A DNA stretch of 64,000 bases, from assembly GCA_029263415.1 (NCBI GenBank), contig JAJCXN010000048.1:1-64000 (forward strand), read 5' to 3'. Every line of letters starts with the position of its first letter. Within the stretch, counting starts at the first letter, position 1. Shown piece after piece: positions 34,609 to 54,644 of the stretch. Below the pieces are notes generated by a model. It was not told where the DNA came from. It did no database searches and was given only the letters and a program-made list of their open reading frames with translations. The position numbers were made by a program, and so were the translations under genes. Origin of the DNA: Acidobacteriota bacterium. Lineage in GTDB: Bacteria > Acidobacteriota > Thermoanaerobaculia > Multivoradales > Multivoraceae.

Positions 34609-35670
34609 ATGACCGAAGAGATCAACGAAGAAGTACTAGGCGAACTAGCCGGCAAAGTGATCGGCGACGTAGCCGGCGCCCTCAGCCTCTTCATGTCCTA
34701 TATCGGCGACCAATCCGGCGTCTACACCGCCATGGACGAAGCCGGCCCCTCAACCCTCGAAGAACTTGCCTCGAAGACCGGCCTCAACCCAAAGTACCTG
34801 CACCAATGGCTAGGCTCGAACGCCGCAGCCGGCTACGTCACCTATGACGCCGACGCCGAAAAGTTTTCGCTGTCCCCCGAACAGGCGTTGATCTTCACGC
34901 GCGAAGGCCAGCCCGCCTGCATGCAGGGCTTCATCCAAGCTGTGGTTTCGCAATACGCAGAGCATGAGAAATCCGTTGCAACGTTCAAGTCGGGCGAGGG
35001 ACGGCCGTGGAGCGACCAGTCCTCCTGCTGCTTCTGCGGCACCGACCGCTTCTTCCGTCCCGGCTACGCCGCCAATCTCGTGGACAACTGGATCCCCGCG
35101 CTCGGAGGCGTGGAGGACAAGCTGAAAGCGGGCGCAAAGGTTGCCGATATCGGCTGCGGCCATGGCTCGTCAACGGTACTCATGGCTGAGGCCTATCCCA
35201 ATTCGACGATCCACGGCATCGATTTCCACGCGCCTTCGATTGAGGCAGCCCGGGCCAAGGCGGCGGCGGCAGGCGTCACCAATGTCGAGTTCCACGTCGC
35301 CGAGGCGCAGGATTTCGCGGGAGGTGAGTTCGATTTCGCCTGCATCTTCGATGCGCTGCACGACATGGGCGATCCGGTTGGTGTGGCAGGGCACATCCGC
35401 GAGGCAATGAAGCCCGATGGCACCTTCATGCTGGTCGAACCGATCGCTGGCGACACCATGTCCGAGAACATGCACCCGCTCGGCCAGATCTACTATGCCT
35501 TCTCCACCACCGTCTGCACACCCGCGTCGCTGGCGCAGGAAGTGGGACTAGGGCTCGGCGCGCAGGCCGGCCAGAAGCGGCTTACTGAAGTGCTGAACGA
35601 GGCCGGTTTCAACGACGTGAAGCGCGCGGCGGAAACGCCCACCAACATGGTGTTGGAGGTTCGCGTTTAG
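34609..35670 (+). CDS. SAM-dependent methyltransferase with N-terminal winged helix
   Basis: A 353-aa enzyme. Residues 1-95 form a dimerising winged-helix domain (VYTAMDEAGPSTLEELASKT, GLNPKYLHQWLGSNAAAGYV) like those in O-methyltransferases and the Rv2258c group. The SAM-binding fold begins at VADIGCGHGSSTVLMAEAYP (motif I), followed by IHGIDFHAPSIEAARA, FDFACIFDALHDMGDPVGVA and LVEPIAGDTMSENMHPLG. CCxCG at about residue 138-142 is unusual and may be structural. The ATG has AGGAG 13 nt upstream. The first third uses CTA leucine codons and C-rich codons, while the remainder is CTG/GC-rich, so the gene may be a mosaic or transferred. The methyl acceptor is unknown. Confidence 0.88.
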   Translation: MTEEINEEVLGELAGKVIGDVAGALSLFMSYIGDQSGVYTAMDEAGPSTLEELASKTGLNPKYLHQWLGSNAAAGYVTYDADAEKFSLSPEQALIFTREGQPACMQGFIQAVVSQYAEHEKSVATFKSGEGRPWSDQSSCCFCGTDRFFRPGYAANLVDNWIPALGGVEDKLKAGAKVADIGCGHGSSTVLMAEAYPNSTIHGIDFHAPSIEAARAKAAAAGVTNVEFHVAEAQDFAGGEFDFACIFDALHDMGDPVGVAGHIREAMKPDGTFMLVEPIAGDTMSENMHPLGQIYYAFSTTVCTPASLAQEVGLGLGAQAGQKRLTEVLNEAGFNDVKRAAETPTNMVLEVRV

Positions 35671-35680
35671 GTCCGGGTTG

Positions 35681-35748
35681 GTAGATCCGGCTCCAGTAGG
35701 TCTGGGCCGGTAGGTCTGGGCCGTAAGATCTGGGCCGGTAAATCTGGG
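35681..35748. repeat. Tandem 14-bp repeat (GTAGGTCTGGGCCG type)
   Basis: Two perfect units at 35696-35723 are flanked by degenerate ones (GTAGATCCGGCTCCA before, TAAGATCTGGGCCG and GTAAATCTGGGA after). It starts within 15 bases of the methyltransferase stop. Confidence 0.8.
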
Positions 35749-35797
35749 AAGAGCGACGTCGAGATCGGGCAAAGGAATCTCGAGTCGCCCTGCTCTG

Positions 35798-35874
35798 TGT
35801 GACTAAGCCGCGTGACGAAGCGGCGTGACGAAGCGGCGTGACGAAGCGGTGTGACGAAGCGGTGTGACGAAGCG
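35798..35874. repeat. Tandem 13-bp repeat (CGTGACGAAGCGG), six units
   Basis: The units at 35811, 35824 and 35837 are identical. Those at 35850 and 35863 differ by C to T at the first base, and the first at 35798 is more diverged. It lies in the same gap as the 14-bp array. It resembles a small variable-number repeat. Confidence 0.9.
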
Positions 35875-35975
35875 CGTGCTCAGCGATTGAAGCCGAGAGC
35901 GACCACCGTCCTTGGCAGCATGGCATCGGTGCACCACCTCGCGGAGACTCCAGCAGCAGCAAAGGGTCAGCAGCA

Positions 35976-36016
35976 GCAGAGGGTGCCAGGCACATGCTGC
36001 GGCTGCAGCAGTGATG
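35976..36016 (+). repeat. Dispersed repeat family D, copy 2
   Basis: GCAGAGGGTGCCAGGCACAT, then GCTGCGGCTGCAGCAGTGAT and GC, with an additional CAGCAGCAG run in front. Confidence 0.7.
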
Positions 36017-36116
36017 CACCCGAAGGTCCCGTTCTCTGGCCACTGGTCGTCCACGTGCATCCAAGAGCTCTGCACAAGAGGACCGTCTAACTTCGGTGCC
36101 GATCGCCATAAACATA

Positions 36117-36145
36117 TCGACATATAATTTACACTTTCGTATAAT
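36117..36145 (+). promoter_or_regulatory. Strong sigma-70-type promoter
   Basis: TCGACA (-35, five of six consensus bases) and TATAAT (-10, perfect) are 17 bp apart, and both stand out in an AT-rich island. The expected transcription start near 36,152 lies about four bases before an ATG at 36156, so the message would be nearly leaderless. Confidence 0.7.
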
Positions 36146-36155
36146 AACTGTCGAC

Positions 36156-36438
36156 ATGAAACTCCTCTCCGATCACCACCCTGATCAATGCGACGATCGA
36201 CAAGGAGCGCCTCGATCAACGCTTGTCCAAGTTCCAATCAAGGCTGCCGAAGTTTCGCTCGCGTCGATCAATGAGCCGAGGCGTGTTCACAAAAGAGCTA
36301 TTGTTATGGCACGAAAATGCCGACGACGAGGCACTGCTCGACGAGCTTCGTCCTCTCCTACCATCCACCGAATTGCCGGGTTTGCCTCTGAAGATTCGAG
36401 TGGCGATTGCTCGAATCGCCGAAGACCTGGCCGAGTGA
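36156..36438 (+). CDS. Small ribbon-helix-helix-like protein, possibly frameshifted
   Basis: Downstream of the promoter the ATG at 36156 reads MKLLSD and then leaves frame. The +1 frame reads TTLINATIDKERLDQRLSKF, then RSRRSMSRGVFTKELLLWHE, and ends LKIRVAIARIAEDLAE at 36438. The second part alone has no good start before a TTG at 36223. The order of a short strand and two helices (INATIDKERLDQRL, then SRGVFTKELLLW) resembles CopG/Arc ribbon-helix-helix DNA-binding proteins. That would suit an antitoxin or small repressor. A one-base indel near 36,172 is the simplest explanation. No toxin partner is seen. Confidence 0.4.
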
Positions 36439-36468
36439 TCGGCTCTCGGGAGAAGTAGGGAAACGCAC

Positions 36469-36508
36469 GTGGGCTCTCCACCCTGAATCCACCCAACCCC
36501 GAGCCCAC
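36469..36508 (+). terminator. Possible terminator hairpin
   Basis: GTGGGCTC (36469-36476) pairs with GAGCCCAC (36501-36508), and the flanking AGTAGG and CCTACT can add an outer stem. It lies 30 bp after the small gene. There is no T-run, so intrinsic termination is uncertain. Confidence 0.45.
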
Positions 36509-36657
36509 CTACTCCCAAGCCATCCCGACTCTCAAACCCATGCGCAAACAACGGGCACCTCATTCACCGGGCCTCGCGCACGATTGGAGAAGGCTGCTCA
36601 CGGCCGCCCAGAAAGCTCGTCCAGCAGGCGTCAGAACCCACGCGGGTCAGGCCACTG

Positions 36658-36968
36658 TTAGCCTGAGCTAGCAACCGCGTCGTTGCCCAAATCACAGCAC
36701 GCACCGAGGGCGACCAATTCCTCCGCAAGCCTGACGATGAGGTCAACGCCAGGATGACCCCGGAACCTAGGCACGTTCATTGAGAATCCGGAGCTACCTG
36801 CCGAATTTTCACGCACACGATCTCCATGAACTCCCGCCAATCCCAGCTCCGCAAGATCTCATCTGCTCCGGCAGTTGCCACGGCAGGCTGTCGGGCTTGG
36901 TTGTCAGTATTTCCTGCAGGACCCAGGTCGCTAATCTGAAGTGCAGCAGGTGCAGGACTACTCGGCAA
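36658..36968 (-). CDS. Two small overlapping ORFs, possible immunity gene remnant
   Basis: A 63-codon frame (36968 to 36777, TTG start) ends ADEILRSWDWREFMEIVCVK and IRQVAPDSQ. Its stop overlaps an ATG at 36780 that opens MNVPRFRGHPGVDLIVRLAE and ELVALGACCDLGNDAVASSG, ending at 36658. They might be one frameshifted gene or a coupled pair. They follow the toxin-bearing RHS gene on the same strand by 77 bp, the usual place for an immunity protein. There is no family match, so this rests on position only. Confidence 0.3.
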
Positions 36969-37045
36969 CTAACTGACCATACGAGGAGGTGGCAACTACT
37001 ACGCCCGCTGGGCAACACTCGGTTCAGATCGCGCGGCCGAACTGG

Positions 37046-40000
37046 CTACGGCGGATCGATGCCCAGCTTCGGCAAGACCTCTTGGCAGTTGTCGCAAGGC
37101 GGGATTTCTACCAGTTTGCCTTCCTTGCGTCGGAGCGGCGTGCCAACTTTGAAGCTACCCGGCTCCACCGTCCCTGAGTCGAAAAGCTCGTCTGCGCAGC
37201 GTTGTTCAGCGCAGCCGCCCAGGGTCTCGGGTCGGTTACTGGTGGGTCTTACATCGTCTACAGCCTTTTGCACCTTGTCGGTAATGAGCATTCCGGTGTC
37301 AGCGGACTCCTCCACGACGAGCTTGCGTTTGCCATTGACGGTGGCCTCCATGGCTACCACGACGCCGCCTTCTTGGCTCGCTGTCGGGACACCCTTGAGT
37401 TTCTCAGGGTCGCCTTTCTTCAACGCTTCGGTGGCCTCTTCGACGTTGTCGAAAAGATCTGTGCAGTCGACGTTGTGGGTGCGCAGGCGCAGTGGCCCTA
37501 CGTGGTAGTTGTCGACATCCTCAACGTTGAGGTTGTAGACGGTGAATGAGCCTTGGAGGCTGGTATTGGATCGCACAAGCGCACGGCCACCGGTCATCGT
37601 GACCAGAACATCGCCGGGTCGGAGGTTGCCCGCCGGTAGCCATCCTTCCTCGCTCACCCAGAACGGATGTTCGGGCGTGACATCAACACTTGAGGTTGAT
37701 CCCTTGCCATCGATTGAGGTGAGTTCTAGTCGTCGCAGTTGGGCCACTTCATGCGAGACGTGTGCCTCGACTTCGGCCTCTCGTTCCCGGTCTTTGACGG
37801 GATCCCAAGCGAGAACATTGTCGCCCCTTCTCACAGTTTCGATGGCAACCGGTCCGGTGCTCGTCCACACCTGAGTACCCGCGGCAAAACACTCGCTGCT
37901 GCCCGGCCTACAGGTACTGCCACTACAGGTGGGTGTGCCGCGACTCGCCCGAGCAGCGTCTCCGGCGGCATCAAGACCGTCCGCCGCGCCCTCCGCAGCG
38001 CGCAACGCCTTCTTTCCTGCACGCAATGCTTGCACCGCGGCGGTTCCTGAACCGATGACCAAGGCTGCGGCCATGATGGCTCGCTCGGTCGGGCTAAGCC
38101 AGTCGAGGGTAGCTACGTCGAAACCCACGATGACTCCGATGCCGTCGAGGATGTCCCCGACGATTGGTACGAAACTAGCTGCAGTCACCACACCTGCCCA
38201 CACGCCGCGGGCGAGCTCCTCCATGCCGTCCCAATCCACTTGCCAACCGCCCTTGCGGGCACCCTGATTGCGGGTGGCGTTGTATCGCTCGGCAACGCTC
38301 TGCTTCAGTTTGAAGATCGTTTCGTCCAACTTGCGCAGCTTCTCTTGCTTGAGGGCTTCGCTCAGGTTGGGGTCTCGAAAGAGTTTGAGCCCCTTTGCAC
38401 GATAGAGCTGGTTGATGGAGTCCATCAGTTGGTCAAGCTGAGCCCGACTCATAGCCGGCCCTTGGGCGCTACCGTTGGTGCGGTGGGTCGAGGTGCCGGC
38501 GAGGTCGACGAAGTTCACCGGGTCTCCACCCGCGTACTGGTACAGATTGCTACCGCCGAGCAGACCGAGCCCGTCGCGTTGGACGAACCGACGCAGCCTT
38601 GGATCTAGATCGCGACTCACAGCGTGGTAAAGGCCACTCTCGAACTCGTACCGATAGCCGGTGAACAGATCGCGATTCGCGATCCGCGAGCGCGGCATCT
38701 CTTGGCCTGCCGCATCGAGAATTGTCGGGGTACCGTACGCGTCGTAGCGATAGCTCTCGAGCACCGTGCCGGCCGCGTCGATTGCGAACACCGCGCTGTC
38801 CAAGAGATCGTGGGCGACCCAGTATTCGAGCGTTTCCGAGCGGTCTCCGTCACTGTCGACGTCGTTGCGGTCGGCGAACTGGCGGTAATCGTCGCCCACA
38901 GCACGGTGGAGCAGGATGCTTGAGGAGGAGGCCGGGGAGCCAGTGGTAAAGAGCAGCCACTCTTCGACCACAGCAGCGCCCCAATACACCAGCTCACGGG
39001 TTTCCGTGCTACTACTGGCCGCGCCGCCGTAAGTAGCAAAGCGCCGGCGATTCTCGGTGTCATAGCGGTAACCAGCCAACGCTTGGCCGGTGCTTGCGTC
39101 GGTCACTCGCCGCAACCGCCCGAAGGCGTCGAAGGTGTAGTTTTTGGAGCCGTCGCCGGCAGGTAAACCGTCAGCGTTATAACTCAGCGGCGTGCCGTCT
39201 GCTTCGCGGAGTTCGTTCATCGCATTAGCGACGTAGGTTTCCGTCGAGGACCCACTAGCGTCGGTCCGGCCAACTGCAACGATATTGCCCGAGCCGTCTA
39301 GGTCGAACTGCTCGCGTAGTTCCGGGTTGCCTCCGCTGCCGGGAACCGCCAGTTCGGCGACTGGGTCGGGGACAGAGTAGACGGTGTCTACGAGGCGCCC
39401 AGCGCTGTCGAAGCGGTAGACATCGCCAGTGTCATTTTGGTGATGCCGAATCGAAGCGCGCCGCTTGCCGCTTGGTTCATAGATGTGCTCAGTGTCGTAG
39501 TACGGTGCCGTAGGGCTGCTACGCGGAAAGTGGGACACTCTGATCGGTCTGGCAGCAGAATCAAAGACCGCACGCGATTCGGCAGCGGGCCCAAGGGATG
39601 CGGCACCGGTCCGGGTGCGATCGGAATAGCGATAACTCATGATCTGGCGGAAGGGAACGCCTGCCTGCTCGCGAAAGTGGGTCGCGACTACTCGGTCATT
39701 CGCGTCGCGACTGTACTGGGTGACGGCTCGGTCGCTGTGGGTAAACAGCGAGACGTGATCATCGTCCGCGTACTGCGCGCTCACTGAGCGGTTGTTCGAG
39801 CGGGTCTCTAGCAGTCGACCGAGAGAGTCGTATCGCCAGTCAACCTGGACATCATCGGTCGGATCGGCGGGGTCATTGTTGTCAACGCTCGAGGTCATCA
39901 GACCACGACCCTCGTAACGAAAGGTCTGTTTTGTTGTGCCTTCGATGCCGGGTCCTCGTGCGACACTGACGCCGACCTTGCGCTCGAGGTCGTCGTATTG

Positions 40001-43000
40001 ATAGCTGATGCGGTTCTGGTTGCCATCGATCAGTTCGAGCAAGTTGCTATCAGCGTCGTAGCGGTACTCAACCCGCGTGCCATCTGGCCGAACCTTCGTC
40101 TTGACCCGATTGCGTCGGTCGTAGATAAAGGTAGTAGTGCTGCCCGGCGCTAGGTCGCCGTCGTCGGTGAGTTCCACTAGGTTGTGACGGTCGTCGTAGC
40201 GCTTGCGTTCCACGACTCGGCCGTCTGGGTTGGCAGGCGGCTGGGCGGGCGCACCATCGCCTTGGCCGTCGGCGCGTAGTTGCAACTGTTTGCCGACCTC
40301 GAGGCTGAAGGCATTGAAAAAGTACGACGTTTCATTGCCCGGGGCATTGATCGGAACTGGAACGATGCTCATCGGATCAGCCTGCAGGGGACCACGACTG
40401 TCGGCCTGCCAAATCAGGTTGGCACGGCTGTCGTAACGTTGGTAGGTGGTGTCCCCGGCCCATCCGGTCCGTCGTATCGGTCGGTTCTGGGTGTCGTAGA
40501 CAACGTAGACACTGCGTTGGACGGTGCCGCCGCCGAGCGATGGATCGACGAGGTCGGTAGTGGTGGTGCGGATGATATTGTGGGCGCCGTCGAAGGTATG
40601 TTCCGTGCTATTGCCCAGCGGATCGGTGTACCTCACAGCTCGATGGAGGCCGTCGTAGTCCACCGTCGTTGCCTCCCCTTCCGCGTCGATGACCCGGGCT
40701 GCGAGTCCGACTCGATTGAGTTCTACACGAGAGCGAAGACTGCGCGGTGCGCCCGCGGTGCCGGGTTCAAACAACTGTCGTTCGGTTGCAAAGGATCGGC
40801 TGGCCTCGTCGTAGTGTCGTTGCTCCGATTCGAGGAGCCGAGCTCCATGGCCGACAAACAGGCGATCTGGGTTGCGACCATCCTGCCCGTCATAGCGGCG
40901 GCTGGTGAGCAGTCGTCCCGCGACATCGTAGGTGTACTCGTTGACGTTGCCCAAAGCGTCGACCGCGCCGATCAGGCGGTCATGGCCATCGTAGTACCTG
41001 AAGGTCGGATCGCCACCCAGACTATCGATCGCACCGTTGTCGAAGCCGTCCACCGACAGGGTCCGATTGTTGTTGCGATCGTAGTGAAAGGTCTCCACGG
41101 ACTCATCGACCGTTCCCGCGGCACGTCTGACCTTGAAGACTCGATCGAAGGCGTCGAACTCGCGCTGTTCGGTAGTGCCGTCGGCCCAGACGACCTCGAT
41201 CTCGTTGCCATTGGCGTCGTAGCTGTACATCTTGGTGCGGAAGGCTTCGGAAGGAACCGGCTCTCCTGGCATCGCGGGTAGGGTCGACTCCTCTTGGACC
41301 ATGACCACTTGATCCAAAATGTCATAGCCATAGAGAGTGCTGAAGGCAGGATTTGCTGCGACCGCACCATGGCTTCCGTCCGCAGCCTCTAGCTTGTTCT
41401 CGATGTCGAGACGGATGAGATTGTCGTTGTGATCGTAGAAGTACTCGATCTCATAGTTGTGCGGTGCAGCCGAAATGCTGCGCACTACTTGGCCGATTTG
41501 ATTGTAGATCTGGCGCGATGTGTTGTTGCGCCCGTCAGTGTTGCCGGTGAGATAGCCGAACTGATCGTATTGGTAGCCGCGAGAAAGAGCAGCAGGAGGC
41601 ACACTTGACTGACGCGTCGGTGTGGTTTGTGCGTCGCGAATCAGGGCTTTTAGATACCCGCCATCACCCGGGAGGGCGAGGTCAGTGGGTTGGCCATCGC
41701 CGTCGGGGTCGCTGTTGGGGTAGAACACGGAACGGGTCAGCACCCCGGCGGGGTCGGTTTCGGTGAGCACCTGTCCGAAGTCGTTTTGGGTGTAGAGAAT
41801 GCGAATGGGCTGCTCGTTGCCACCCTCCACCAAGCGCTGGGTCGACCAGTCCGGTAGGAGAACGCTCGGGTCTTGATGGATGATCACGTTGCCGGAAAGT
41901 TGATCGGTGCGGCCGTCGCCATTGACATCGCCGAGGCCGACGGCGATCCCGCTGCGAGTTAGCAGCATTTGCACGTCTGCCACCGAGCGGTTGAGTTCAC
42001 CGGCCAGGCCAGTCAGGTCAGTGCCTTCCTGATAGTCGTAGGTATAGGTCGTTGTGTATCGTCTGGCGCTCCAGGACCCCACCGAGGGAACATAGTTGGG
42101 ATCGTTACCCGGTGCTTCGATGATGCTGACCAGCTGATTGAAAATCGGCTCGTAGCGCATTTCTTGAACTTCAACGACGCCGCCTCGCCGCTGATCTGGC
42201 ACCAGCTCTTTGCGCAACACGTTGCCGCGTTGCAGCGGGTCCGGATTGTTCTCGTCGTAGGTGTAGCGAATCTCATTGCCTTCGCCGAGCTGTTGCCTAA
42301 CCACTTGCCCGGTTGGGTTGTACTCGTTCGACACCACAATCTCTGTCGGGTCTGTGCCCGGCGTTGGGTCCGCAGTGTCGTCGATGGGTCGATGGTTGCC
42401 GGAGCGTGCAGCAACCCTGAGTTCGGCACCCCGGGCGTTGTGCTCGTAGATCGACACGTTGCCGTTGCCGTCGGTGATTGTGGTGCGGTTCCTGATGATG
42501 TTCAGATTGTCCGGCGAGGTTCCTTGATTGAGCGCTTGGTATTGATAGCCGATTTTTCCGCCCGCTCGGATTCCGGTGCGGTTGACGCCTCCCATCCGTT
42601 GCGTCGTCACCTTGTCGAACTGGTAGGTACCCTGCTTCTCCCCGTAGCTGTTGATGAGGTAGGGCGGCCCGCCAGAAGCGACCTCGTTCGGACGTGTCAC
42701 AGTAAGCAGGTTGTTGTTGAGTTCTTGAAGGCGAGCACAGCAAGAGTAGGTATAGCGCGTGGTCTTGCCGAACGGGAAGTCGTTGCCGTTGGGCGTGCCT
42801 TGGACAGCGTGGGTGGTCACCGACACCAGTTGGCGAGAACCGTTGTACTGGTACACCACTGTGCGACCGCCAAAGTCTTCAATACGGGTCAGAAGATCGT
42901 CCTGGTAGGTCAGGCGTAGTGCCCTTCCGTAGGGGTCTCTGACCACCTCTAGTCGGCCTGCTGGGTTGTACTCGAGGGTCACTTGATTGCCGTAGCGATC

Positions 43001-46000
43001 CTCCTTCGACAACAGTCGGCCGTCTGTTCCGAACGTCTTCTTGAAGCCGTAGCGAGAGCGCAGGACAACACCGCCAACAGGCAGTTCATTGAGTTCGTCG
43101 AAACTCCCTGGTGGCGACAGCAATGTACCGTCGGGCTGTCGGGTATAGCGGGTGATAGCACCACCGCCGGAGTGAAGGTCGTAGTGGCCTTGGGCGACCA
43201 GCAACATGCGTTCGTTGTAGTTGTGATCCCAATTGTGGCCGAGGACGCCAAGGTACCGAATGCGGCTGCGGTAGGAACGGATGAACGAAAGATCCATACC
43301 GCCGCGACCGCTCAGCATGTAGTCGGTTTCCGAGAGGAAGAACTCACCGGAATTCAGATGCACTGGATCGCCCGCATCTCCCGGCCCGTTCGACGGGTTC
43401 TCTTGATCATCCTGATCATCCGGTTCGAGCGGGACCGGGTCTCCGTGGGTTGTCGAACCTGGTCTGATGACCGGCTCCCGTTCGATGGGTGTCTCCGGCG
43501 GTGCGGTGCCGGTTGTGCTTTCCTCAGTCCTTCTCTTGCGCCGAGTTGTGGAGGTGTAGTGGATGCCACTAGGCCCAGTAGTGGAAACCAAACCCACCGC
43601 GCCGGTCGTAAGGTCGATGCTGTGCACTGCGCTCGAGGGCTCGCCCTCGATCGTGCCACCGGCCACCCAGATGGTGTTGTGACCTTTGTTAATGAGCACT
43701 GGTTGCTCGAGGCCGTAGGGAAGCTCAGTGAGAATAGTTCCGGCCCCCTCCCGCAGGTCCCAAAGCTCCACCGTAGCGAGCGAAGAAGGATGGGTTGCAC
43801 TTGAGACCAATGCACCCCGGCCGCCGACCAACACCGCACGATCGTCGCCCAGGGCAAGCGCTGCGAATCGACTGCGGGGCTCGATCAGTTGCCCGACAAC
43901 CTCGAAGGTCCCGCGCTCGGGATCGTAGCGTTCCACTTCAGCTACCGGCACTCCTTGGTTCTCACCGCCAAACACCAGGACCGCTCCACTGGACGCTACA
44001 ACCATCTGGTGATGGCTGCGGGGTTGCTGCAGATCACCGGTCGGCTGCCAGGTACTGATCAGCCGGTTGAAGATCTCAGCACTTCCCGACGGGGGCCCGG
44101 AAGGGCCGGGGTTGCCACCGCTGACCAAGACATTGCCGCACTGCTGGAGGGTTTGCGAGGCTGCGCTCGAACGGGCGACACCCATGTCGGGTAGAGGTGT
44201 GAATCGACGACCGTCAAACAACTCCGTTTGCTTCAGCGAGCGCCCCTGGGCATCTCTCCCTCCGGCGATCAAGACGTCGCCGTTGGGCAACGACTTTGCC
44301 AGATGAGCGGTCCGTTCGACGGACATTGGCGGCCCGGTGCGAACGCTGCGCGTGTATGGGTCTACCAACGCTGTTTCTTTCAGCAGTCGCCCCTGAGAGT
44401 CGCGGCCGCCGACGAACAGGATGTCATCGTAGCCAACCGCCGTGCCCTCGTCGTCGGGGTCGAAGTGTGGCGCCGGGGATATCAGGCGACCCGTCGCGGT
44501 GATCTCGTCGATGGCCGCTGGCCCGAAGCCGGGTATCCAACAAATTTCTGGATCGTCACCACCGTTGCGGTCATCCGGGTCCTTGCCGTTCTCATCTTTG
44601 TTCGAATCGTCAGCCGAGCAGTACCCGTCCAAGGGAAGGAAATCCTGGTCGGTGTCGGTGCGCGTGGAGCTAGAGGGATGCCAGAGGTCGACTGCTCCTT
44701 GTGGAAAGCCCTCGAGCTCGTGATCGCGCCGACTGGTGCCTTCCCAGGTGGAGAGGGTGAATCCAGATCGGGCTGGATCTTTGGTCAGAACCACGAGCGC
44801 CGGCCCGGTCACAGACCTGACAAACGCACGATGCAACAGCGTGTGCGCACCATCTGCAGCGCCGGCCGGGTAGAGCAATGGGCCGTCTCGGGAGATCAGC
44901 AGAGCGTCGACTCCCGCAGTCAATGCGCCTGGAAGGGGTAGTTGCTCCAGGGTTCCGCTGGAGACGTCGAAGCGCACGAGTGTGGCCTTGGCGAAGAGGT
45001 CGCCGCCCTGGGCAAGTACCGCGATTTCGCGATCGCCTGGCAGCACGATCAGATCTGTGGAACCGGGAACGAAGCCGGGCAGCGGGAACAGATCCACCTG
45101 TTGGTTGTCGAGCCTGACGCGCACCAGCGTCTCAGCCGCTGCGATGACCGCAAACTGATCCTGGTGGACCAAAACCACATCCGAGTCCGCGCGGACACGA
45201 TCGGGCAGGTCGACGGAACCCACCTTCATGCTCGCGAGATCGACCATCGCCAAACGATCGAAGAGTCCAGCTCGATTCGAAATAGGGAGCACCACCTGCT
45301 CTTCGAGTTTGGTGAGCTGTGGGTCGTCGCCGGGCACCGGCTTACCTGGCAGGCAGACCGTGCGCACCGCTCCAGTGGCGAAATCGATAATCGCCAAGAA
45401 GCCCAGTTGGCCATCGAAACTCGATGTTGCGATCATTGCGAGGTCGCTGTGTTGTAGGAGCACTAGATCCTGGTCGCCCACCAGAAGGCCGGGAACCTGG
45501 TATGTCTCAACTATTCGACCGGTCGCCGGCTCCACGCGATCAACGTACGAACCGGCGAGATCACCGTCGATTGTTGGTATCAGCAGGTCTCCGTTGGAAT
45601 GCACAACGACATCCACCCCAGGTTGTATGTAGCCCGAGAGTGCAGTGTCCACAATGCTGGCCGAAAGCGGTTCAACCTGGATCAGGCGCCCACTGATTTC
45701 GTCCTGTACCGGCAACGCGATCCAGTCGTTAGGCGTTGCCACCAAGTCGACATCTCGGACTGGTCGCCCAGGCAGGTCGATGGTCCCAGGCGCCGCGTCG
45801 TTGGCCAACCAAAGATGCAGTGTGCCAGCGTGCCTGCCGGTACGGATGGCTGCTGCAAACAGATCGAGGGCAGGGACTGCTAGCGGGTCGACTCCAACGA
45901 CTACTGAGCCCTTGAGGTTGGCTGATCTTGGGGTGCCAGCCGTGCTCGCGGTTGTGCTCGCGGTGTCGAGCAGATGCAAATGAGCCGCAGTGGAGTCGGC

Positions 46001-46264
46001 GGAGCGCAGCAATAACGCAATTTGTCCTAGCGAATCGGCGACTGCGAGGTCGACATCATCGACGGGCAACCCGAGCACCGTGGTGGGGACGGCTGCCGTC
46101 GAGGTAGGAGCGAACTCCGCCGCAACGATTCCCGAGAGGAGCCATTGAGTGTTGGCGCGGTAGCCGCTCAGCATTACCGCGGCGACCACGATCCCAGAGA
46201 GCACAGCCACAGTTCGAATGAGCCAGCGACGGCGCGGGTGGCGACGGGGGTCGTTGGTAGTCAT
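37046..46264 (-). CDS. Giant RHS polymorphic toxin: beta-propeller/Kelch, RHS core, Hint, deaminase-type tip
   Basis: About 3,070 aa, with ATG at 46264 (GTG at 46267 or TTG at 46273 also possible; AGAGGAG upstream). The N-terminal membrane helix is RTVAVLSGIVVAAVMLSGYR. Residues 45-530 are propeller repeats of about 60 aa (PGVDVVVHSNGDLL type), and residues 570-960 are Kelch repeats (GDVLIAGGRDAQGRSL). A DUF6531-like block follows (VHLNSGEFFLSETDYML), then some 1,500 residues of YD repeats up to the RHS core end DPRLRRFVQRDGL. At about 2794 a Hint domain runs from CFAAGTQVWT through TPEHPFW to LRTHN, likely releasing the tip. The last 135 residues carry GGCAEQRCADELF and IPPCDNCQEVL, the (H/C)AE plus PCxxC zinc site of deaminase-fold toxins such as YwqJ-like. 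A toxin role is inferred from this architecture. Confidence 0.9.
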   Translation of the reverse strand: MTTNDPRRHPRRRWLIRTVAVLSGIVVAAVMLSGYRANTQWLLSGIVAAEFAPTSTAAVPTTVLGLPVDDVDLAVADSLGQIALLLRSADSTAAHLHLLDTASTTASTAGTPRSANLKGSVVVGVDPLAVPALDLFAAAIRTGRHAGTLHLWLANDAAPGTIDLPGRPVRDVDLVATPNDWIALPVQDEISGRLIQVEPLSASIVDTALSGYIQPGVDVVVHSNGDLLIPTIDGDLAGSYVDRVEPATGRIVETYQVPGLLVGDQDLVLLQHSDLAMIATSSFDGQLGFLAIIDFATGAVRTVCLPGKPVPGDDPQLTKLEEQVVLPISNRAGLFDRLAMVDLASMKVGSVDLPDRVRADSDVVLVHQDQFAVIAAAETLVRVRLDNQQVDLFPLPGFVPGSTDLIVLPGDREIAVLAQGGDLFAKATLVRFDVSSGTLEQLPLPGALTAGVDALLISRDGPLLYPAGAADGAHTLLHRAFVRSVTGPALVVLTKDPARSGFTLSTWEGTSRRDHELEGFPQGAVDLWHPSSSTRTDTDQDFLPLDGYCSADDSNKDENGKDPDDRNGGDDPEICWIPGFGPAAIDEITATGRLISPAPHFDPDDEGTAVGYDDILFVGGRDSQGRLLKETALVDPYTRSVRTGPPMSVERTAHLAKSLPNGDVLIAGGRDAQGRSLKQTELFDGRRFTPLPDMGVARSSAASQTLQQCGNVLVSGGNPGPSGPPSGSAEIFNRLISTWQPTGDLQQPRSHHQMVVASSGAVLVFGGENQGVPVAEVERYDPERGTFEVVGQLIEPRSRFAALALGDDRAVLVGGRGALVSSATHPSSLATVELWDLREGAGTILTELPYGLEQPVLINKGHNTIWVAGGTIEGEPSSAVHSIDLTTGAVGLVSTTGPSGIHYTSTTRRKRRTEESTTGTAPPETPIEREPVIRPGSTTHGDPVPLEPDDQDDQENPSNGPGDAGDPVHLNSGEFFLSETDYMLSGRGGMDLSFIRSYRSRIRYLGVLGHNWDHNYNERMLLVAQGHYDLHSGGGAITRYTRQPDGTLLSPPGSFDELNELPVGGVVLRSRYGFKKTFGTDGRLLSKEDRYGNQVTLEYNPAGRLEVVRDPYGRALRLTYQDDLLTRIEDFGGRTVVYQYNGSRQLVSVTTHAVQGTPNGNDFPFGKTTRYTYSCCARLQELNNNLLTVTRPNEVASGGPPYLINSYGEKQGTYQFDKVTTQRMGGVNRTGIRAGGKIGYQYQALNQGTSPDNLNIIRNRTTITDGNGNVSIYEHNARGAELRVAARSGNHRPIDDTADPTPGTDPTEIVVSNEYNPTGQVVRQQLGEGNEIRYTYDENNPDPLQRGNVLRKELVPDQRRGGVVEVQEMRYEPIFNQLVSIIEAPGNDPNYVPSVGSWSARRYTTTYTYDYQEGTDLTGLAGELNRSVADVQMLLTRSGIAVGLGDVNGDGRTDQLSGNVIIHQDPSVLLPDWSTQRLVEGGNEQPIRILYTQNDFGQVLTETDPAGVLTRSVFYPNSDPDGDGQPTDLALPGDGGYLKALIRDAQTTPTRQSSVPPAALSRGYQYDQFGYLTGNTDGRNNTSRQIYNQIGQVVRSISAAPHNYEIEYFYDHNDNLIRLDIENKLEAADGSHGAVAANPAFSTLYGYDILDQVVMVQEESTLPAMPGEPVPSEAFRTKMYSYDANGNEIEVVWADGTTEQREFDAFDRVFKVRRAAGTVDESVETFHYDRNNNRTLSVDGFDNGAIDSLGGDPTFRYYDGHDRLIGAVDALGNVNEYTYDVAGRLLTSRRYDGQDGRNPDRLFVGHGARLLESEQRHYDEASRSFATERQLFEPGTAGAPRSLRSRVELNRVGLAARVIDAEGEATTVDYDGLHRAVRYTDPLGNSTEHTFDGAHNIIRTTTTDLVDPSLGGGTVQRSVYVVYDTQNRPIRRTGWAGDTTYQRYDSRANLIWQADSRGPLQADPMSIVPVPINAPGNETSYFFNAFSLEVGKQLQLRADGQGDGAPAQPPANPDGRVVERKRYDDRHNLVELTDDGDLAPGSTTTFIYDRRNRVKTKVRPDGTRVEYRYDADSNLLELIDGNQNRISYQYDDLERKVGVSVARGPGIEGTTKQTFRYEGRGLMTSSVDNNDPADPTDDVQVDWRYDSLGRLLETRSNNRSVSAQYADDDHVSLFTHSDRAVTQYSRDANDRVVATHFREQAGVPFRQIMSYRYSDRTRTGAASLGPAAESRAVFDSAARPIRVSHFPRSSPTAPYYDTEHIYEPSGKRRASIRHHQNDTGDVYRFDSAGRLVDTVYSVPDPVAELAVPGSGGNPELREQFDLDGSGNIVAVGRTDASGSSTETYVANAMNELREADGTPLSYNADGLPAGDGSKNYTFDAFGRLRRVTDASTGQALAGYRYDTENRRRFATYGGAASSSTETRELVYWGAAVVEEWLLFTTGSPASSSSILLHRAVGDDYRQFADRNDVDSDGDRSETLEYWVAHDLLDSAVFAIDAAGTVLESYRYDAYGTPTILDAAGQEMPRSRIANRDLFTGYRYEFESGLYHAVSRDLDPRLRRFVQRDGLGLLGGSNLYQYAGGDPVNFVDLAGTSTHRTNGSAQGPAMSRAQLDQLMDSINQLYRAKGLKLFRDPNLSEALKQEKLRKLDETIFKLKQSVAERYNATRNQGARKGGWQVDWDGMEELARGVWAGVVTAASFVPIVGDILDGIGVIVGFDVATLDWLSPTERAIMAAALVIGSGTAAVQALRAGKKALRAAEGAADGLDAAGDAARASRGTPTCSGSTCRPGSSECFAAGTQVWTSTGPVAIETVRRGDNVLAWDPVKDREREAEVEAHVSHEVAQLRRLELTSIDGKGSTSSVDVTPEHPFWVSEEGWLPAGNLRPGDVLVTMTGGRALVRSNTSLQGSFTVYNLNVEDVDNYHVGPLRLRTHNVDCTDLFDNVEEATEALKKGDPEKLKGVPTASQEGGVVVAMEATVNGKRKLVVEESADTGMLITDKVQKAVDDVRPTSNRPETLGGCAEQRCADELFDSGTVEPGSFKVGTPLRRKEGKLVEIPPCDNCQEVLPKLGIDPP

Positions 46265-46287
46265 CACTAGCAATTCTCCTCTGCAAC

Positions 46288-46764
46288 TTGTTTGTTGTGT
46301 TGCCCGATCATCGTACCGGCACTGTCAGGTTAACAAGACGCCTGAGAGACTCAGCTCATGGACACGGGCACGTCAGCTATCGTAGGCATCGATTCCCGCC
46401 CGAGATCATCAGTCACACCATCTGGCTGCACTGCTGGTTCTGCCTGAGCTTCCGTAATGTTGAGGACCTCCTGGCAGAACGCGGAATCACGTGGTCGGAG
46501 CTGCGGGACAAGTACGTCGAGTGCTCTAAGGTCCTCGATTCGTTTCAGCAGTACATGAAGGAAGCAGGACATCAGGTAACGAGAGCGCAGTTCGAAGCCA
46601 GCCTTCACGCCAAAACGACCAGGACACCAGGTTTTCGAACGGATATCGAGCCCTTGTTGCGGTCCGGGGTGCCTTGGATTTTCGATCAGGCTATGAACCT
46701 CGTGGAAGAACGCCTCATAACGGCGCTTCCAGGTGATCCTTGGCGCCGCGGCGCAAAGAACTGA
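46288..46764 (+). pseudogene. Chimeric remnant: IS6 transposase 5' part joined to AbiEii-like 3' part
   Basis: The first half of the frame reads HRFPPEIISHTIWLHCWFCL and SFRNVEDLLAERGIT. This is the unmistakable N-terminal helix-turn-helix of IS6/IS26-family transposases, which are normally about 230 aa. The next residue begins a different protein: WSELRDKYVECSKVLDSFQQ, RAQFEASLHAKTTRTPGFRT, DIEPLLRSGVPWIFDQAMNL. That part resembles the C-terminal segment of AbiEii-type nucleotidyltransferase toxins (PGFxxDIxPLL). Both halves are truncated, so a deletion or insertion fused them. The product is most likely inactive. It lies immediately upstream of the giant RHS gene on the opposite strand. Confidence 0.7.
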
Positions 46765-47268: not shown

Positions 47269-47850
47269 TCATTCTTGCGGGTCCGCGAGTGCGTTGGAAA
47301 CTTGCACGACGCGAGAAGACAGCAGGTGGCTACAGGCCACCGTCAAGCCTGGAGGTACCTTGGAGCACCCCTTCAACTCGCGGACTAGCGTCCGATAGTC
47401 TTCGCCGTACCTTTGTACGAGCGGCCGGTTCAGAGGCTCAAACTCCCACAGCTCTGCGGTCGTCTCTAAGGCCTCCACCGCTCGTCTCACGTCGGGCGTG
47501 ATGAGCGCTTCACAGTCGATGTGGTTCGCGTTCTTCCACACTTGACGCAGCGTCTCGCGCGCCTGAAGTGGCCCGTTCACCAGCCAGGGTGCTCGGAGAA
47601 CAACGAGCAGTACGCCTATTGCAACCAACGGCACTCCAACGCCAACCCGATAGGAGGTTGAGAAGGAGGAGTTGGCAAAGCCGACCTCCAGCTCGGGCCA
47701 CATTGCCTTCAGCACCGCCGCGGCCAGGTCCCAGAACTGATCCCCGCTGAGCAAAGCGACTCCGCCTGAGACGAGTATTAGCGCGACGGCGGCCCTGCCC
47801 TTGCGAAGTAGGTAGTCCACCAAGAGTCTCGACCATGTCTGCAAACGCAC
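47269..47850 (-). CDS. Hypothetical membrane protein
   Basis: About 193 aa starting at the GTG at 47850, which has GGGAGAGG about 6 nt before it. A longer open frame reaches 48045 but shows no coding character. It has two membrane helices, GRAAVALILVSGGVALLSGD and GVGVPLVAIGVLLVVLRAPW, the latter after a 40-residue loop. A soluble C-terminal helical domain follows, with ALITPDVRRAVEALETTAEL. It is transcribed divergently from the PadR/ADOP operon at 48082, so the double operator at 48022-48060 might also affect it. The function is unknown. Confidence 0.6.
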   Translation of the reverse strand: MRLQTWSRLLVDYLLRKGRAAVALILVSGGVALLSGDQFWDLAAAVLKAMWPELEVGFANSSFSTSYRVGVGVPLVAIGVLLVVLRAPWLVNGPLQARETLRQVWKNANHIDCEALITPDVRRAVEALETTAELWEFEPLNRPLVQRYGEDYRTLVRELKGCSKVPPGLTVACSHLLSSRVVQVSNALADPQE

Positions 47851-48021
47851 GTTTACCTCTCCCTTCTCTAACGTTAGACGGACACAGACCACACGTTGGG
47901 ACATCCGGCTATCGTGGAGTCGCCTCAAGGGGCTCGCCCTCGGCATGAGGAACCCGGCAGCAGCTGGGTTCAATGCGGCTTCGCGCCTCGAAGTTGAAAC
48001 CCTTCGCCCTTGCACCCGTAC

Positions 48022-48060
48022 ACCTAGTTCACTAAGGTATAACACCTAGTTCACTTAGGT
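48022..48060. promoter_or_regulatory. Double PadR operator
   Basis: Two 17-bp copies, ACCTAGTTCACTAAGGT (48022-48038) and ACCTAGTTCACTTAGGT (48044-48060), differ at one base. Each has dyad symmetry ACCTA-N7-TAGGT. Their centres are 22 bp apart, about two helical turns, so two dimers would bind the same face. The PadR start is 22 bp downstream, with the Shine-Dalgarno AGGAG in between. Confidence 0.8.
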
Positions 48061-48081: not shown

Positions 48082-48405
48082 ATGGCAGGGAGCAACCTCT
48101 TTGTAGGTACTCTGGACCTTCTGATTCTTCGAGCGGTCCGACAGCAGGCCCTACATGGCTATGCAATCGGCGCATGGATTCGAGATCAAACCGACGGTGT
48201 TCTGGATGTTGCGGAAGGCGCTTTGTATCCAGCACTGCATCGACTCGAAGGGAAGGGGCTACTGGGTGCCGACTGGGGGCAGAGCGAGACCGGTAGGCAA
48301 GCAAAGTTCTACAAGCCAACTAAGTCCGGGCTCAAGCAACTGAAGTCCGAGAGCGCACGTTGGCAAGAGCATTCCAAAGCTGTGACGGCAGCTCTTCAGA
48401 GCTAA
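48082..48405 (+). CDS. PadR-family transcriptional regulator
   Basis: A 108-aa regulator of the short PadR type. FVGTLDLLILRAVRQQALHG and YAIGAWIRDQTDGVLDVAEG are followed by ALYPALHRLEGKGLLGADWG and AKFYKPTKSGLKQL. AGGAG lies 6 nt upstream. The ADOP permease begins 12 bp after the stop. It most likely represses this operon by binding the double operator at 48022-48060; the signal is unknown. Confidence 0.92.
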   Translation: MAGSNLFVGTLDLLILRAVRQQALHGYAIGAWIRDQTDGVLDVAEGALYPALHRLEGKGLLGADWGQSETGRQAKFYKPTKSGLKQLKSESARWQEHSKAVTAALQS

Positions 48406-48416
48406 AGGGGAACAGC

Positions 48417-51104
48417 ATGTGGCACCCACGTCCAAAGCGTTCGCTCCGAGTGACGAAGTATGCGCCCAACGTTGAGCGCGACGTTCGAGATGAACTGAAT
48501 CTGCACATTGAACTCCGGATTCAAGAGTTGGTCGACTCGGGCAAGAGCCCAGAGGACGCAAAACGAGAAGTGCTGAGAGCCTTCGGTGACCACGACAGGA
48601 TCACTCGCGAGTGTGAAAGCGCGTCGCGCGCCAACCAGGGGACGCAAAGGATGAAGGACTTTTTGGCGTCGATCGCAACGGATATCCGATACGGAGTCAG
48701 GCACCTGGCGAAGCGCCCGAGCATGGCACTTGTGGTGTTAGCTGTTTGGACGCTCTGCATTGGAGCGAATGTGGCGATCTTCAGTTTGGTGAACGGGATC
48801 TTGCTACGCCCACTGCCCTATCCAGAGGCCGACCGGCTGGTTGCGATCTACGGCAGCATGCCGAAGGCGAATGTGGACCGACTCAATAGTGATCTGGCGC
48901 AGTTCTTGTCCATGCGAGATCGCCTTGATTCGCTGGAGTCACTGGCTCTGTACAACAAGGTCTCCACAGGTGTCGGCGAACCGGGCGCGGTACGCAACAT
49001 TTTCAGCATGGACGTGTCGACGGGTTTCTTCGACACTCTGGGTGTGCCCCTTTCCCTGGGACGTGGGTTTACTGCCGAAGATGGCAGAGCAGGTGCTGCA
49101 CCGGTGGTGGTTATCAGGCAAGACCTTGCAGAGTCTCAGTTTGGTCCCGGCACTAACCCGATTGGTATGACCCTCGATACTGAGCCTGGTAGTTACACGG
49201 TGGTTGGAGTGCTACCACGCGAGTTTCTGTTCGCCGACTGGGAGGCAAAGCTCTGGTTCCCTCTGACGATCCAAGAAGAGCTGCCGTTTGAGGAACTGAG
49301 TAGAGACAGCGGTTATGCCACGGTCGCTCGACTTCGCCCTGAAGCCAATCTCTCCGATCTTGATACGGAACTGACGGCGTACAGCTCGGACTACCTCGAA
49401 CGGGTCACTGCGGAAGCAAGGCTTCGGGCCATCGAGGGTGGCTTCAGCACTCGCGGGTATCTACTGAAGAGTGACTTGGTCAAACAGGTGAGGCCCGCTC
49501 TTTACCTCTTGTGGGTCGGCGTGCTATTGGTCCTGGTACTCGGGTGCGTGAACATTGCAACCTTGCTTCTGGTCAGGAACACCGTGCGTCTGCGAGAGCT
49601 CGCCATTCGGTTCTCTGTAGGAGCCACCCGTACCCGGATCGCCAGACAGCTGGCCACAGAAAGCGTGCTTCTAGCACTGGCCGGTGGAGGGCTTGGCCTG
49701 GTGCTGGGCGCTTGGAGCCTTCGCTTTCTGACGGTGTTCGAGGCGTACGAAATTCCTCGAGTGAACGATGTTGGTCTAGATTATCGAGCTGTTGGTTTCA
49801 CGCTGCTGGTGACTGCGGGCGTGGGCCTGCTCGCTGGATTGATACCGGCTCTCTACGGCCCCTTTCGTGGGCTTCAATCGTTTCTGCGAAATGGTGAACG
49901 TGGCGGGGTCGGTCAAGGTACCGGAGCGCTCCGGAGTTCGCTGGTTGCGGCGCAAGTAGCGTTGGCCTTTGTTCTCTTAGTGGGGGCGGCACTACTCAGC
50001 ACAAGCCTGTACAACGTGATGTCTGTAGATCCTGGTTTTGACACGGACAGCGTCCTGGCTGCTGCCACTGTGATTCCTTGGGATCGCTACGGTTCGATGC
50101 CTGAACGCAATCAGTTTATTGACGAGCTGCTGAGCCGGTTCGAGGCGACACCAGGGGTGGCCAGCGCGGCGGTGGTCAGCCAGTTGCCGTTCTCAGGTAG
50201 TAATGGCAAAGACTTCGTGGTTCCAGAGAACGCTCCCACAGGCGACGTGCAGTTGCTCTCCTGGCGCAACACTGTGAGCCCGAGCTACTTTGCCACCATG
50301 GGCATTCCAATCAAGGCAGGTAGAGGTTTCACAGCCGACGACAGCGCACGCGTGAATCCTGCGGTCATTGCGGACGAAACCCTGGCTGAGAAACTGTGGC
50401 CCGACCAAGATCCGATTGGACGTCGAGTTCGCATTGGACTTGACGACGCTGACAACCCCTCTTGGGCGACGGTGGTGGGGATCGCTGGCGCGATCGTGCA
50501 AAACGATCCCACCGAGGAATCCAAACTGGGGGCGATCTATCTTCCAGCACGTGACAGCGGGATCACCTTTGCACGCCTCGCGTTTAAGACCGAGACCGAG
50601 CCGTTGGCAGCGTACAAGGGGCTAAAGGAAACACTGCTCCGGTTGGACCCCAACGGCAGGATGTTCTGGGTGCTGAGCATGGAGGATGCACTCAGTGAAC
50701 AACTCGTGTTTCGACGCCTTCCAGCACTCATGATCTTGTCCTTTGCAGCCATCTCGCTGCTGCTGTCTGTCCTGGGCGTGTACGGAGTGCTAGCTCACAC
50801 GGTAGGCCAGCGTTCGGCCGAGATTGGACTCAGGTTGGCGCTGGGAGGCAAGCCGATGGCCATTGTCGCTCAAGTTCTCCGCCACGGTCTGATGGTGGTG
50901 GCGGCGGGCGCTTTTGTTGGGATTGCTATTGCTGTAGGGATGTCGAGGCTGGCAAGCGGTTTGCTCTATGGAGTGCATCCAAACAGCCCGTGGATCTACC
51001 TCGCTGTGGTGGCGGTCGTTCTGTTCAGCACGCTGCTTTCCTGCCTGGTGCCAGCAAGAAGGGTTTTGAGTGTTGATGTGGTCGCAACGTTGAAAGGTGA
51101 CTGA
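48417..51104 (+). CDS. ADOP-type ABC transporter permease (MacB/FtsX-like)
   Basis: About 895 aa. The ATG at 48417 follows GGGGA and comes 12 bp after the PadR stop. The N-terminus is the permease prefix domain 1 (NVERDVRDELNLHIELRIQE, then SPEDAKREVLRAFGDHDRI). Two MacB_PCD plus FtsX units follow. Helices include MALVVLAVWTLCIGANVAIF and LYLLWVGVLLVLVLGCVNIA; RLRELAIRFSVGATRTRIAR marks the first FtsX domain, and QRSAEIGLRLALGGKPMAIV the second. Like the gene at 26062, it lacks an adjacent ATPase. The prefix domains of the two permeases differ, so they belong to different subgroups rather than being a recent duplication. Confidence 0.92.
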   Translation: MWHPRPKRSLRVTKYAPNVERDVRDELNLHIELRIQELVDSGKSPEDAKREVLRAFGDHDRITRECESASRANQGTQRMKDFLASIATDIRYGVRHLAKRPSMALVVLAVWTLCIGANVAIFSLVNGILLRPLPYPEADRLVAIYGSMPKANVDRLNSDLAQFLSMRDRLDSLESLALYNKVSTGVGEPGAVRNIFSMDVSTGFFDTLGVPLSLGRGFTAEDGRAGAAPVVVIRQDLAESQFGPGTNPIGMTLDTEPGSYTVVGVLPREFLFADWEAKLWFPLTIQEELPFEELSRDSGYATVARLRPEANLSDLDTELTAYSSDYLERVTAEARLRAIEGGFSTRGYLLKSDLVKQVRPALYLLWVGVLLVLVLGCVNIATLLLVRNTVRLRELAIRFSVGATRTRIARQLATESVLLALAGGGLGLVLGAWSLRFLTVFEAYEIPRVNDVGLDYRAVGFTLLVTAGVGLLAGLIPALYGPFRGLQSFLRNGERGGVGQGTGALRSSLVAAQVALAFVLLVGAALLSTSLYNVMSVDPGFDTDSVLAAATVIPWDRYGSMPERNQFIDELLSRFEATPGVASAAVVSQLPFSGSNGKDFVVPENAPTGDVQLLSWRNTVSPSYFATMGIPIKAGRGFTADDSARVNPAVIADETLAEKLWPDQDPIGRRVRIGLDDADNPSWATVVGIAGAIVQNDPTEESKLGAIYLPARDSGITFARLAFKTETEPLAAYKGLKETLLRLDPNGRMFWVLSMEDALSEQLVFRRLPALMILSFAAISLLLSVLGVYGVLAHTVGQRSAEIGLRLALGGKPMAIVAQVLRHGLMVVAAGAFVGIAIAVGMSRLASGLLYGVHPNSPWIYLAVVAVVLFSTLLSCLVPARRVLSVDVVATLKGD

Positions 51105-54400: not shown

Positions 54401-54644
54401 AGGCGAGGAATTCATCTTCCTATTTCCCGAGACCGACCTCAATGGTGCCCTGATTATCGCGGAGAAGATACGCGACGCGGTGTCTTCCCGGCCTATTGTT
54501 TGGAATGGTCGCGACCTCGCGGTGACGATTACCATCGGCGTCACGACGATGGAACCAGGCGATGAGTTTCATGCTCGCGTCGCCGCAGCTGATGCTGCTC
54601 TTTATGGTGGAAAGCGCACCGGCAAGAACAAGGTTGTAGGCTGA
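51495..54644 (+). CDS. Periplasmic propeller sensor with GGDEF diguanylate cyclase
   Basis: A 1,049-aa receptor. A signal or first membrane helix (LVPYLIAVACLLAAIATSAA) is followed by about 14 two-component-propeller repeats, with typical LWVGTRGGGVSRYD and LWIGTYSGLYEVD strands, that make a large periplasmic sensor. A Y_Y_Y domain (YRYRLENLHNDWIET, TLPPGAYTFRVQASG) and a membrane helix (LLALITLLVAVVAIPILRLA) follow, then a coiled coil and a GGDEF domain. The active site is WGGEEF, and the inhibitory RxxD (REVD) lies five residues before it, so both catalysis and product inhibition look intact. It should make cyclic di-GMP in response to an outside ligand, perhaps a glycan by analogy with this sensor type. 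Confidence 0.92.
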   Translation: MCVRQVTFLDRLFRFCCSLQRLVPYLIAVACLLAAIATSAAERRFERTSTVAGVEGAVVLDIVQDDLGFVWFGTSEGLYRFDGYSSRIFSAGKDSDGSLHSNRVSSLLLSRNGTLWVGTRGGGVSRYDAATQTFVAFRHQPDNPLSLAHDDVLDLTEDAEGRIWVATARQGLSRLDDPLTDAGTFQHFVHDPDNPKSLSDDRTRTLLFDQSGSLWVGTMGGINRVGDPLAQNPEFEAYRHDPQRLGSLPDDEVWSLKQDSEGNLWAGMWGGGLARLDNPDAVPMDATFTRFAADPDDSTSLSDNRVMRIFEDRAGSLWIATLSGLNELTAAQRLGSNPRFQRSVHDPRWDFSLSSGGIHAIFEDQRGDLWIGTDEGVDRLDRRVQQVESYRFQPGLEGGLSDYPWDALIDRNGVLWVAHGSGLNRIERPSDSLEVAQVLNIRFAPEINGVKEGAAYSLLEDRFGYLWFTTFDGLVGMAPAQQAQDQPALLKYLEGLSSNAVLSLFEDEVGALWVGTYRGLHRVERDETGAPIGFPEYHGRVDEKDRLQGSANAIAADASGRLWIGTYSGLYEVDSATKRAVLHMPDIRKSDALSNEFIETLLLDSQDRLWVGTRSGELNLHLGEGRFEQIGVQQGLRSNTVHSIAEYGGYLWLATSRGLVRLDPETQTLSSLGVDKGVSANEVFKVRSRPGGLLVVASPAVDLLQSLSAGQTASSQPVVLSGLRIRNRPVVPGTALLPQALERMNEIVFDRSHDLVTFEFGSLDYRRAQSVAYRYRLENLHNDWIETTAQDRRAVFSTLPPGAYTFRVQASGDGSFDQPAESSIRVVMVPAWWQTGWARLLALITLLVAVVAIPILRLATARVQTRRLEEQVLKRTSDLAAANRRLEELATTDSTTGLFNRRRFLEAVSATQAAMRRHQRTAAIALADIDDFKAVNDTWGHEAGDRVLCVVAERLADSIREVDDLARWGGEEFIFLFPETDLNGALIIAEKIRDAVSSRPIVWNGRDLAVTITIGVTTMEPGDEFHARVAAADAALYGGKRTGKNKVVG

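Follow-up and report, generated by a model that had tools for sequence, protein, structure and literature searches.

A probable Sec-exported RHS toxin from an Acidobacteriota bacterium combines a Kelch front half, a Hint domain and a divergent deaminase-type tip

The analysed stretch of DNA (the window) comprises 64,000 nucleotides of an Acidobacteriota contig. Between positions 37046 and 46264 its minus strand carries the complete gene of an RHS polymorphic toxin, a frame that is open throughout and encodes 3072 residues. The frame begins with an ATG at 46264, with a GTG at 46267 and a TTG at 46273 likewise in frame, and ends with a stop codon at 37046. An AGGAG can be read directly at 46276-46280. 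Codon-position base composition and codon score resemble those of the other window genes over the full length of the gene, including the C-terminal 141 residues, which we refer to as the tip. From N- to C-terminus the protein is composed of a hydrophobic helix, a series of weak repeats, an acidic linker, a Kelch region, DUF6531, an RHS shell with its core, a segment similar to PT-TG, a Hint domain and the tip. A giant RHS toxin gene had been predicted at this position, and the single intact frame with the confirmed domain order bears this out. All parts of the protein described below are encoded on the minus strand.

The N-terminus consists of an Arg-rich stretch followed by a putative membrane helix or signal anchor (residues 13-37, 46154-46228). 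The hydropathy profile of the whole protein, computed over 19 residues, peaks within this segment, which agrees with the inner-membrane helix that had been proposed for the N-terminal half. It is followed by about nine weak repeats at residues 62-492 (44789-46081). With repeat starts set by hand at approximately residues 62, 115, 164, 209, 257, 305, 353, 395 and 444, the spacing is 42-53 residues, so the period of 60 residues given in the original prediction was wrong. When each of the 10 hand-set units was left out in turn, 6 scored higher than all 1000 of their own shuffles; the repeats are therefore real, if weak, and they probably form a β-propeller. No PDB sequence matches the weak-repeat region (residues 45-560), and no relative of it was detected at E 0.001 among 147 genomes of the class besides its own. 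Single-sequence AlphaFold modeling of residues 45-928 resulted in a mean pLDDT of 35.4.

Downstream of the acidic linker lies a Kelch propeller at residues of about 604-888 (43601-44455). The signal in this region is strong, as evidenced by scores above the Pfam cut-offs for Kelch_6 (58.0 bits) and Kelch_4 (56.0 bits) and by 92 PDB sequences matched with phmmer at E ≤ 0.001, and the Kelch blades that had been proposed here are thus found. Using residues 580-1100, which reach from the Kelch region to the start of the shell, we obtained matches in 113 of 396 genomes of the phylum at E 1e-8, its own included. Considering single alignments, the window protein is the only one among the matches listed in which Kelch and DUF6531/RHS are covered together. 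The Kelch-RHS junction therefore appears to be rare or private within the genomes sampled. A frame of 27,346 residues in a genome of the same order (G230) was discarded as an artefact created by runs of N. In the open-licence literature we found no report of RHS combined with Kelch, and none of the sampled genomes yielded a relative of the double front, in which repeats and Kelch stand ahead of RHS. The expectation that the front half is unusual thus holds within these genomes. Sec-exported RHS toxins with β-propellers are, however, already tabulated in PMC3482391, and variable adhesion modules ahead of the shell are described for bacterial teneurin-like proteins in PMC13018210.

The shell is introduced by DUF6531 (residues 965-1039, 43148-43372; 55.6 bits, above the Pfam cut-off) and extends over residues 1050-2590 (38495-43117). 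It is recognized by RHS_repeat (PF05593; 125.7 bits in 11 stretches, above cut-off), by TIGR01643 and by sequence similarity to Rhs shells in the PDB. At their end the RHS/YD repeats run into an RHS-associated core (residues 2507-2590, 38495-38746; Rhs_assc_core TIGR03696, 51.5 bits), and this combination, seen with Pfam and NCBIfam, marks polymorphic toxins. The RHS shell of the original prediction is thus recovered. For the bacterial RHS core, PMC13018210 describes two Asp, one Arg and DPxG motifs as autoprotease residues. In the window protein D2564, D2587 and R2551 occupy the corresponding places, assigned by position. They are spaced by 23 and 13 residues, where the protein of that study has 24 and 13. 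Both DPxG-type motifs lack the usual Pro.

These features invite a comparison with bacterial teneurin-like proteins, which according to PMC13018210 place variable adhesion modules before an exported YD shell and end in a variable C-terminal toxin, with HINT among the predicted types. The window protein resembles them in a YD shell that is probably exported behind a front of putative adhesion modules, in two Asp and one Arg of the RHS core, assigned by position, and in its putative C-terminal toxin, and by likeness it may work in a similar way. In contrast to the teneurin-like proteins, it has Kelch and weak repeats ahead of DUF6531 and no downstream immunity gene. NHL gave no Pfam match in the window protein at E 1, which is a weak test as it used Pfam models rather than the FN-plug/NHL HMMs of PMC13018210. 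The protein could be a teneurin-like surface weapon built on a different plan, in which a type II helix, stacked propellers (the second of them Kelch) and an RHS shell would bring an antidote-less deaminase into non-kin cells. If true, propeller and YD shell would have been joined a second time, independently, for cell-cell contact. We consider this unlikely.

Between the core and the tip lie two further domains. A segment similar to pre-toxin TG (residues 2693-2753, 38006-38188) scores just below threshold with PF14449 (23.2 bits, cut-off 23.5). The Hint domain (residues 2792-2931, 37472-37891) scores above cut-off with PT-HINT (PF07591, 55.2 bits) and matches the bacterial intein-like domain 2lwy from the PDB over its full length (E 1.5e-16). 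Hint domains depend on their first Cys, a TxxH motif and a C-terminal His-Asn pair. These residues are kept as C2792, TPEH at 2863-2866, and H2930 and N2931. In intein-like chemistry the lack of a nucleophile after the Asn leads to cleavage without splicing. Since Val, which is not a nucleophile, follows Asn2931, cleavage without splicing is the expected outcome here as well. Compared with 2lwy, the window domain differs in this Val and in its place between an RHS core and a tip. The sequence comparison and the intact residues are in accordance with the release domain that had been proposed.

The tip comprises residues 2932-3072 (37049-37471) and is not matched by any Pfam, NCBIfam, PHROGs or PADLOC model, even at E 10. 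Searching 72,556 plasmid records with 143 residues by tblastn yielded a single match (E 0.1, 29% identity, query residues 32-141). This match occupies the same position in an RHS protein from Streptomyces and exceeds the cut-off of PF14431 (YwqJ-deaminase) by 0.9 bits. Four further Streptomyces plasmid loci contributed five more tips, all above the PF14431 cut-off (27.5 to 76.3 bits). The profile built from these six, and thus from Streptomyces plasmid tips only, scores the window tip with 32.2 bits, compared with 13.0 bits for the best of 5000 shuffles and 3.1 bits for the best stretch in the rest of the window protein. Leaving out one member at a time gave 26.7 to 38.4 bits. With hhalign, the tip and the profile align over 73 columns at 93.5% probability (E 2.3e-7).

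A joint profile searched against 177,635 PDB sequences returned three matches at E ≤ 10 (1zab, 1mq0 and 3dmo). All three are cytidine deaminases, the matches are weak (E 0.27-0.45), and in the alignments CAE lies over CAE and PCxxC over PCxxC. CAE at residues 3018-3020 (37205-37213) would accordingly provide the first zinc ligand and the catalytic Glu. The second and third zinc ligands would come from CDNC at residues 3057-3060 (37085-37096), aligned with PCGAC of the cytidine deaminases and part of the PPCDNC motif at residues 3055-3060. Both zinc-site motifs, [HC]xE and CxxC, are therefore present in the tip. These comparisons give good support to a homology with the YwqJ deaminases in which CAE and PCxxC are conserved, and judged by its sequence the tip is a divergent YwqJ/cytidine-deaminase-type domain with intact zinc-site residues. 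The original prediction had named a deaminase-type tip and both motifs, and had asked for deaminase homology with conserved catalytic residues. The profile score and the aligned zinc motifs answer this in the affirmative.

That the tip is not a deaminase and carries CAE and PCxxC by chance would fit the lack of any library model, the weak pairwise scores and the mean pLDDT of 39.9 from single-sequence AlphaFold. The profile score far beyond 5000 shuffles, the hhalign probability and PDB matches that are cytidine deaminases only make such a coincidence very unlikely. The predicted order of secondary structure elements (two strands, a helix, a helix with CAE and a helix with PCxxC) is compatible with a deaminase and was given no evidential weight. 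Unlike the fused tip, 1zab, 1mq0 and 3dmo are free-standing metabolic enzymes. As its zinc motifs are similar to those of free cytidine deaminases, one might think of an RHS protein with a housekeeping or cell-surface role, its tip being a deaminase of the nucleotide-salvage kind rather than a weapon. The tip is, however, part of a fusion in which it follows PT-TG-like, RHS-core and Hint domains, and its nearest relative sits in the same place in another RHS protein, which leaves this the least probable of the explanations weighed here.

With YwqJ-like toxins (PF14431) the window tip has in common the profile homology, the motifs C[AG]x and PCxxC and the position behind RHS/Hint; it differs from them in scoring below the Pfam cut-off and in lacking a SUKH-type neighbor. 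The window tip keeps the Glu of CAE, whereas four of the six Streptomyces tips replace C-A-E by C-G-L (L014:1435-1842, L016:2501-2905, L017:2501-2902 and L022:1501-1905). The CGL tips lack the catalytic Glu and retain PCxxC and a SUKH-3 neighbor. They are either inactive enzymes or catalyze another chemistry. At the locus L021 both copies of the tip retain CAE. A profile of these two CAE-type members alone does not find the window tip (9.8 bits, best shuffle 11.7), so the six-tip signal rests on the four other tips.

Closer to home, relatives of the tip are missing. Only the tip itself was recovered from 148 genomes of the class, and PF14431 returned nothing besides it in 247 genomes of the phylum and nothing above cut-off in its own genome. 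Three matches in the 396 phylum genomes besides its own (E 0.001-0.008) were rejected as the underlying frames show no deaminase motif by eye; one of them (L010) reads like a phosphoribosyltransferase. Searches of genome contigs yielded 108 pattern stretches with the tip as query, none of which was confirmed, and 134 stretches with a four-row alignment as query, again without a relative. Viral contigs searched with the window tip or the L014 Streptomyces tip returned nothing, and neither did phages. As far as sampled, the tip is an orphan within its phylum.

In all five Streptomyces loci fetched, a SUKH-3 gene lies directly 3' of the YwqJ tip or overlaps its end; at L016 and L022 the tip itself has no gene annotation. 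The corresponding site of the window is the 1375-bp stretch 35671-37045, across which the 3' end of the toxin gene faces a convergent methyltransferase gene. All frames scored in this stretch have negative codon scores (-0.10 to -0.18), compared with 0.089 to 0.189 for the nine window genes that formed the training set, the toxin among them, and 0.124 for the tip. Searches for SUKH-3 with tblastn and HMM gave only noise in the window and no match across the genome, SUKH-3 being the one immunity family searched genome-wide. We thus found no immunity gene next to the tip, neither among the frames of 35671-37045 nor by the SUKH-3 search.

Further features of the surroundings are as follows. At 35669-35887, where the methyltransferase gene ends and the non-coding DNA 3' of the toxin gene follows, there are short tandem repeats whose periods are 13 and 14 bases. 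A fragment of the N-terminus of an IS6-family transposase (NF033587, 39 residues, 34.5 bits) is encoded at 46288-46764 (plus strand), immediately 5' of the toxin gene and in divergent orientation; no IS6-type ends were detected above chance. Upstream on the strand of the toxin, 47269-48045 holds a 258-residue frame with two hydrophobic stretches by eye, a near-zero codon score and a weak match to the PADLOC '2TM effector' (E 0.024). On the plus strand, a PadR-type regulator overlaps a 914-residue MacB/FtsX-type permease (48082-51104), and 51495-54644 encodes a 1049-residue protein with a C-terminal GGDEF whose N-terminal part matches the NCBIfam PorZ model.

The missing immunity gene bears on two other explanations. 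The same architecture could end in a decayed or non-toxic tip, an orphan cassette that lost its antidote since the producer is no longer harmed. Apart from the lack of an immunity-like frame in 35671-37045 and of SUKH-3 in the genome, the transposase fragment adjoining the gene start and the tandem repeats in the downstream non-coding DNA are in line with such decay. However, the entire 9.2-kb frame is intact, as are the residues for zinc binding and catalysis, and the codon signal of the tip is that of the rest of the gene, which renders decay improbable. Alternatively, the tip may target cells that pose no risk to the producer, such as eukaryotic predators, so that an antidote is not needed; Wolbachia has RHS deaminases that lack immunity genes, and in PMC3482391 these are inferred to act on the host. 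Against this, YwqJ-type relatives adjoin SUKH-3 at every locus fetched, which argues for bacterial targets of the family, and an antidote of an unrecognized family may lie elsewhere in the genome. We regard targets of this kind as doubtful.

Three other RHS frames are present in the genome (3758 residues on C5, 2386 on C54 and 1767 on C51; L018, L019 and L020). Each is a gene of its own, and none matches the front half of the window toxin. Those on C5 and C54 each lie directly 3' of a large ORF on the same strand (1024 and 1420 residues, respectively). A partial 16S rRNA recognized with RF00177 reaches at most 79.6% identity among the 15 listed rows of 569 matching plasmid records, while a few records have higher identity over shorter matches or outside the list. 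PAAR was detected neither in the toxin protein (Pfam) nor in the genome. The protein lacks this adaptor in contrast to T6SS Rhs effectors, and its absence agrees better with export by Sec than by a T6SS. Export by Sec, for which the protein offers one hydrophobic helix, is the likeliest route because of this helix, the absence of PAAR and the tabulation in PMC3482391 of a class of Sec-dependent toxins that combine propellers, RHS and Hint. Table 1 of PMC3482391 lists Sec-exported RHS polymorphic toxins with β-propellers among their repeats. They likewise combine a signal or membrane helix, an RHS shell, Hint and a C-terminal tip acting on nucleic acids, while the window protein has two different repeat modules before the shell, one of them Kelch, and no immunity gene was found for it.

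Overall, the protein is an RHS/Hint toxin of a known type that lacks one usual feature, the immunity gene. With a probability of roughly 0.68, the comparisons point to a Sec-exported RHS polymorphic toxin with a Hint-released tip of the YwqJ/cytidine deaminase type. The N-terminal helix would insert the protein into the inner membrane or lead it across, and may serve as its anchor. The repeats and the Kelch propeller ahead of the shell would bind a surface partner or the target, and the RHS shell would enclose the C-terminal end. The Hint domain would then cut after Asn2931 and release the 141-residue zinc enzyme, whose predicted action in a foreign cell is the deamination of a base or nucleotide. 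All steps past export, that is surface display, cleavage, delivery, toxicity and substrate, we infer.

What this weapon is directed against is a testable question that arises from the absence of an antidote gene and from the way Kelch and RHS are joined. Base-editing enzymes are known to come from bacterial deaminase toxins, with DddA and SsdA as examples (PMC7901873), and a base editor has been made from SsdA (PMC12628173). For YwqJ-type toxins we found no functional characterization in the literature searched. The tip looks like an intact, divergent deaminase that is invisible to the model libraries, and because no library model detects it, surveys based on such models would miss it.
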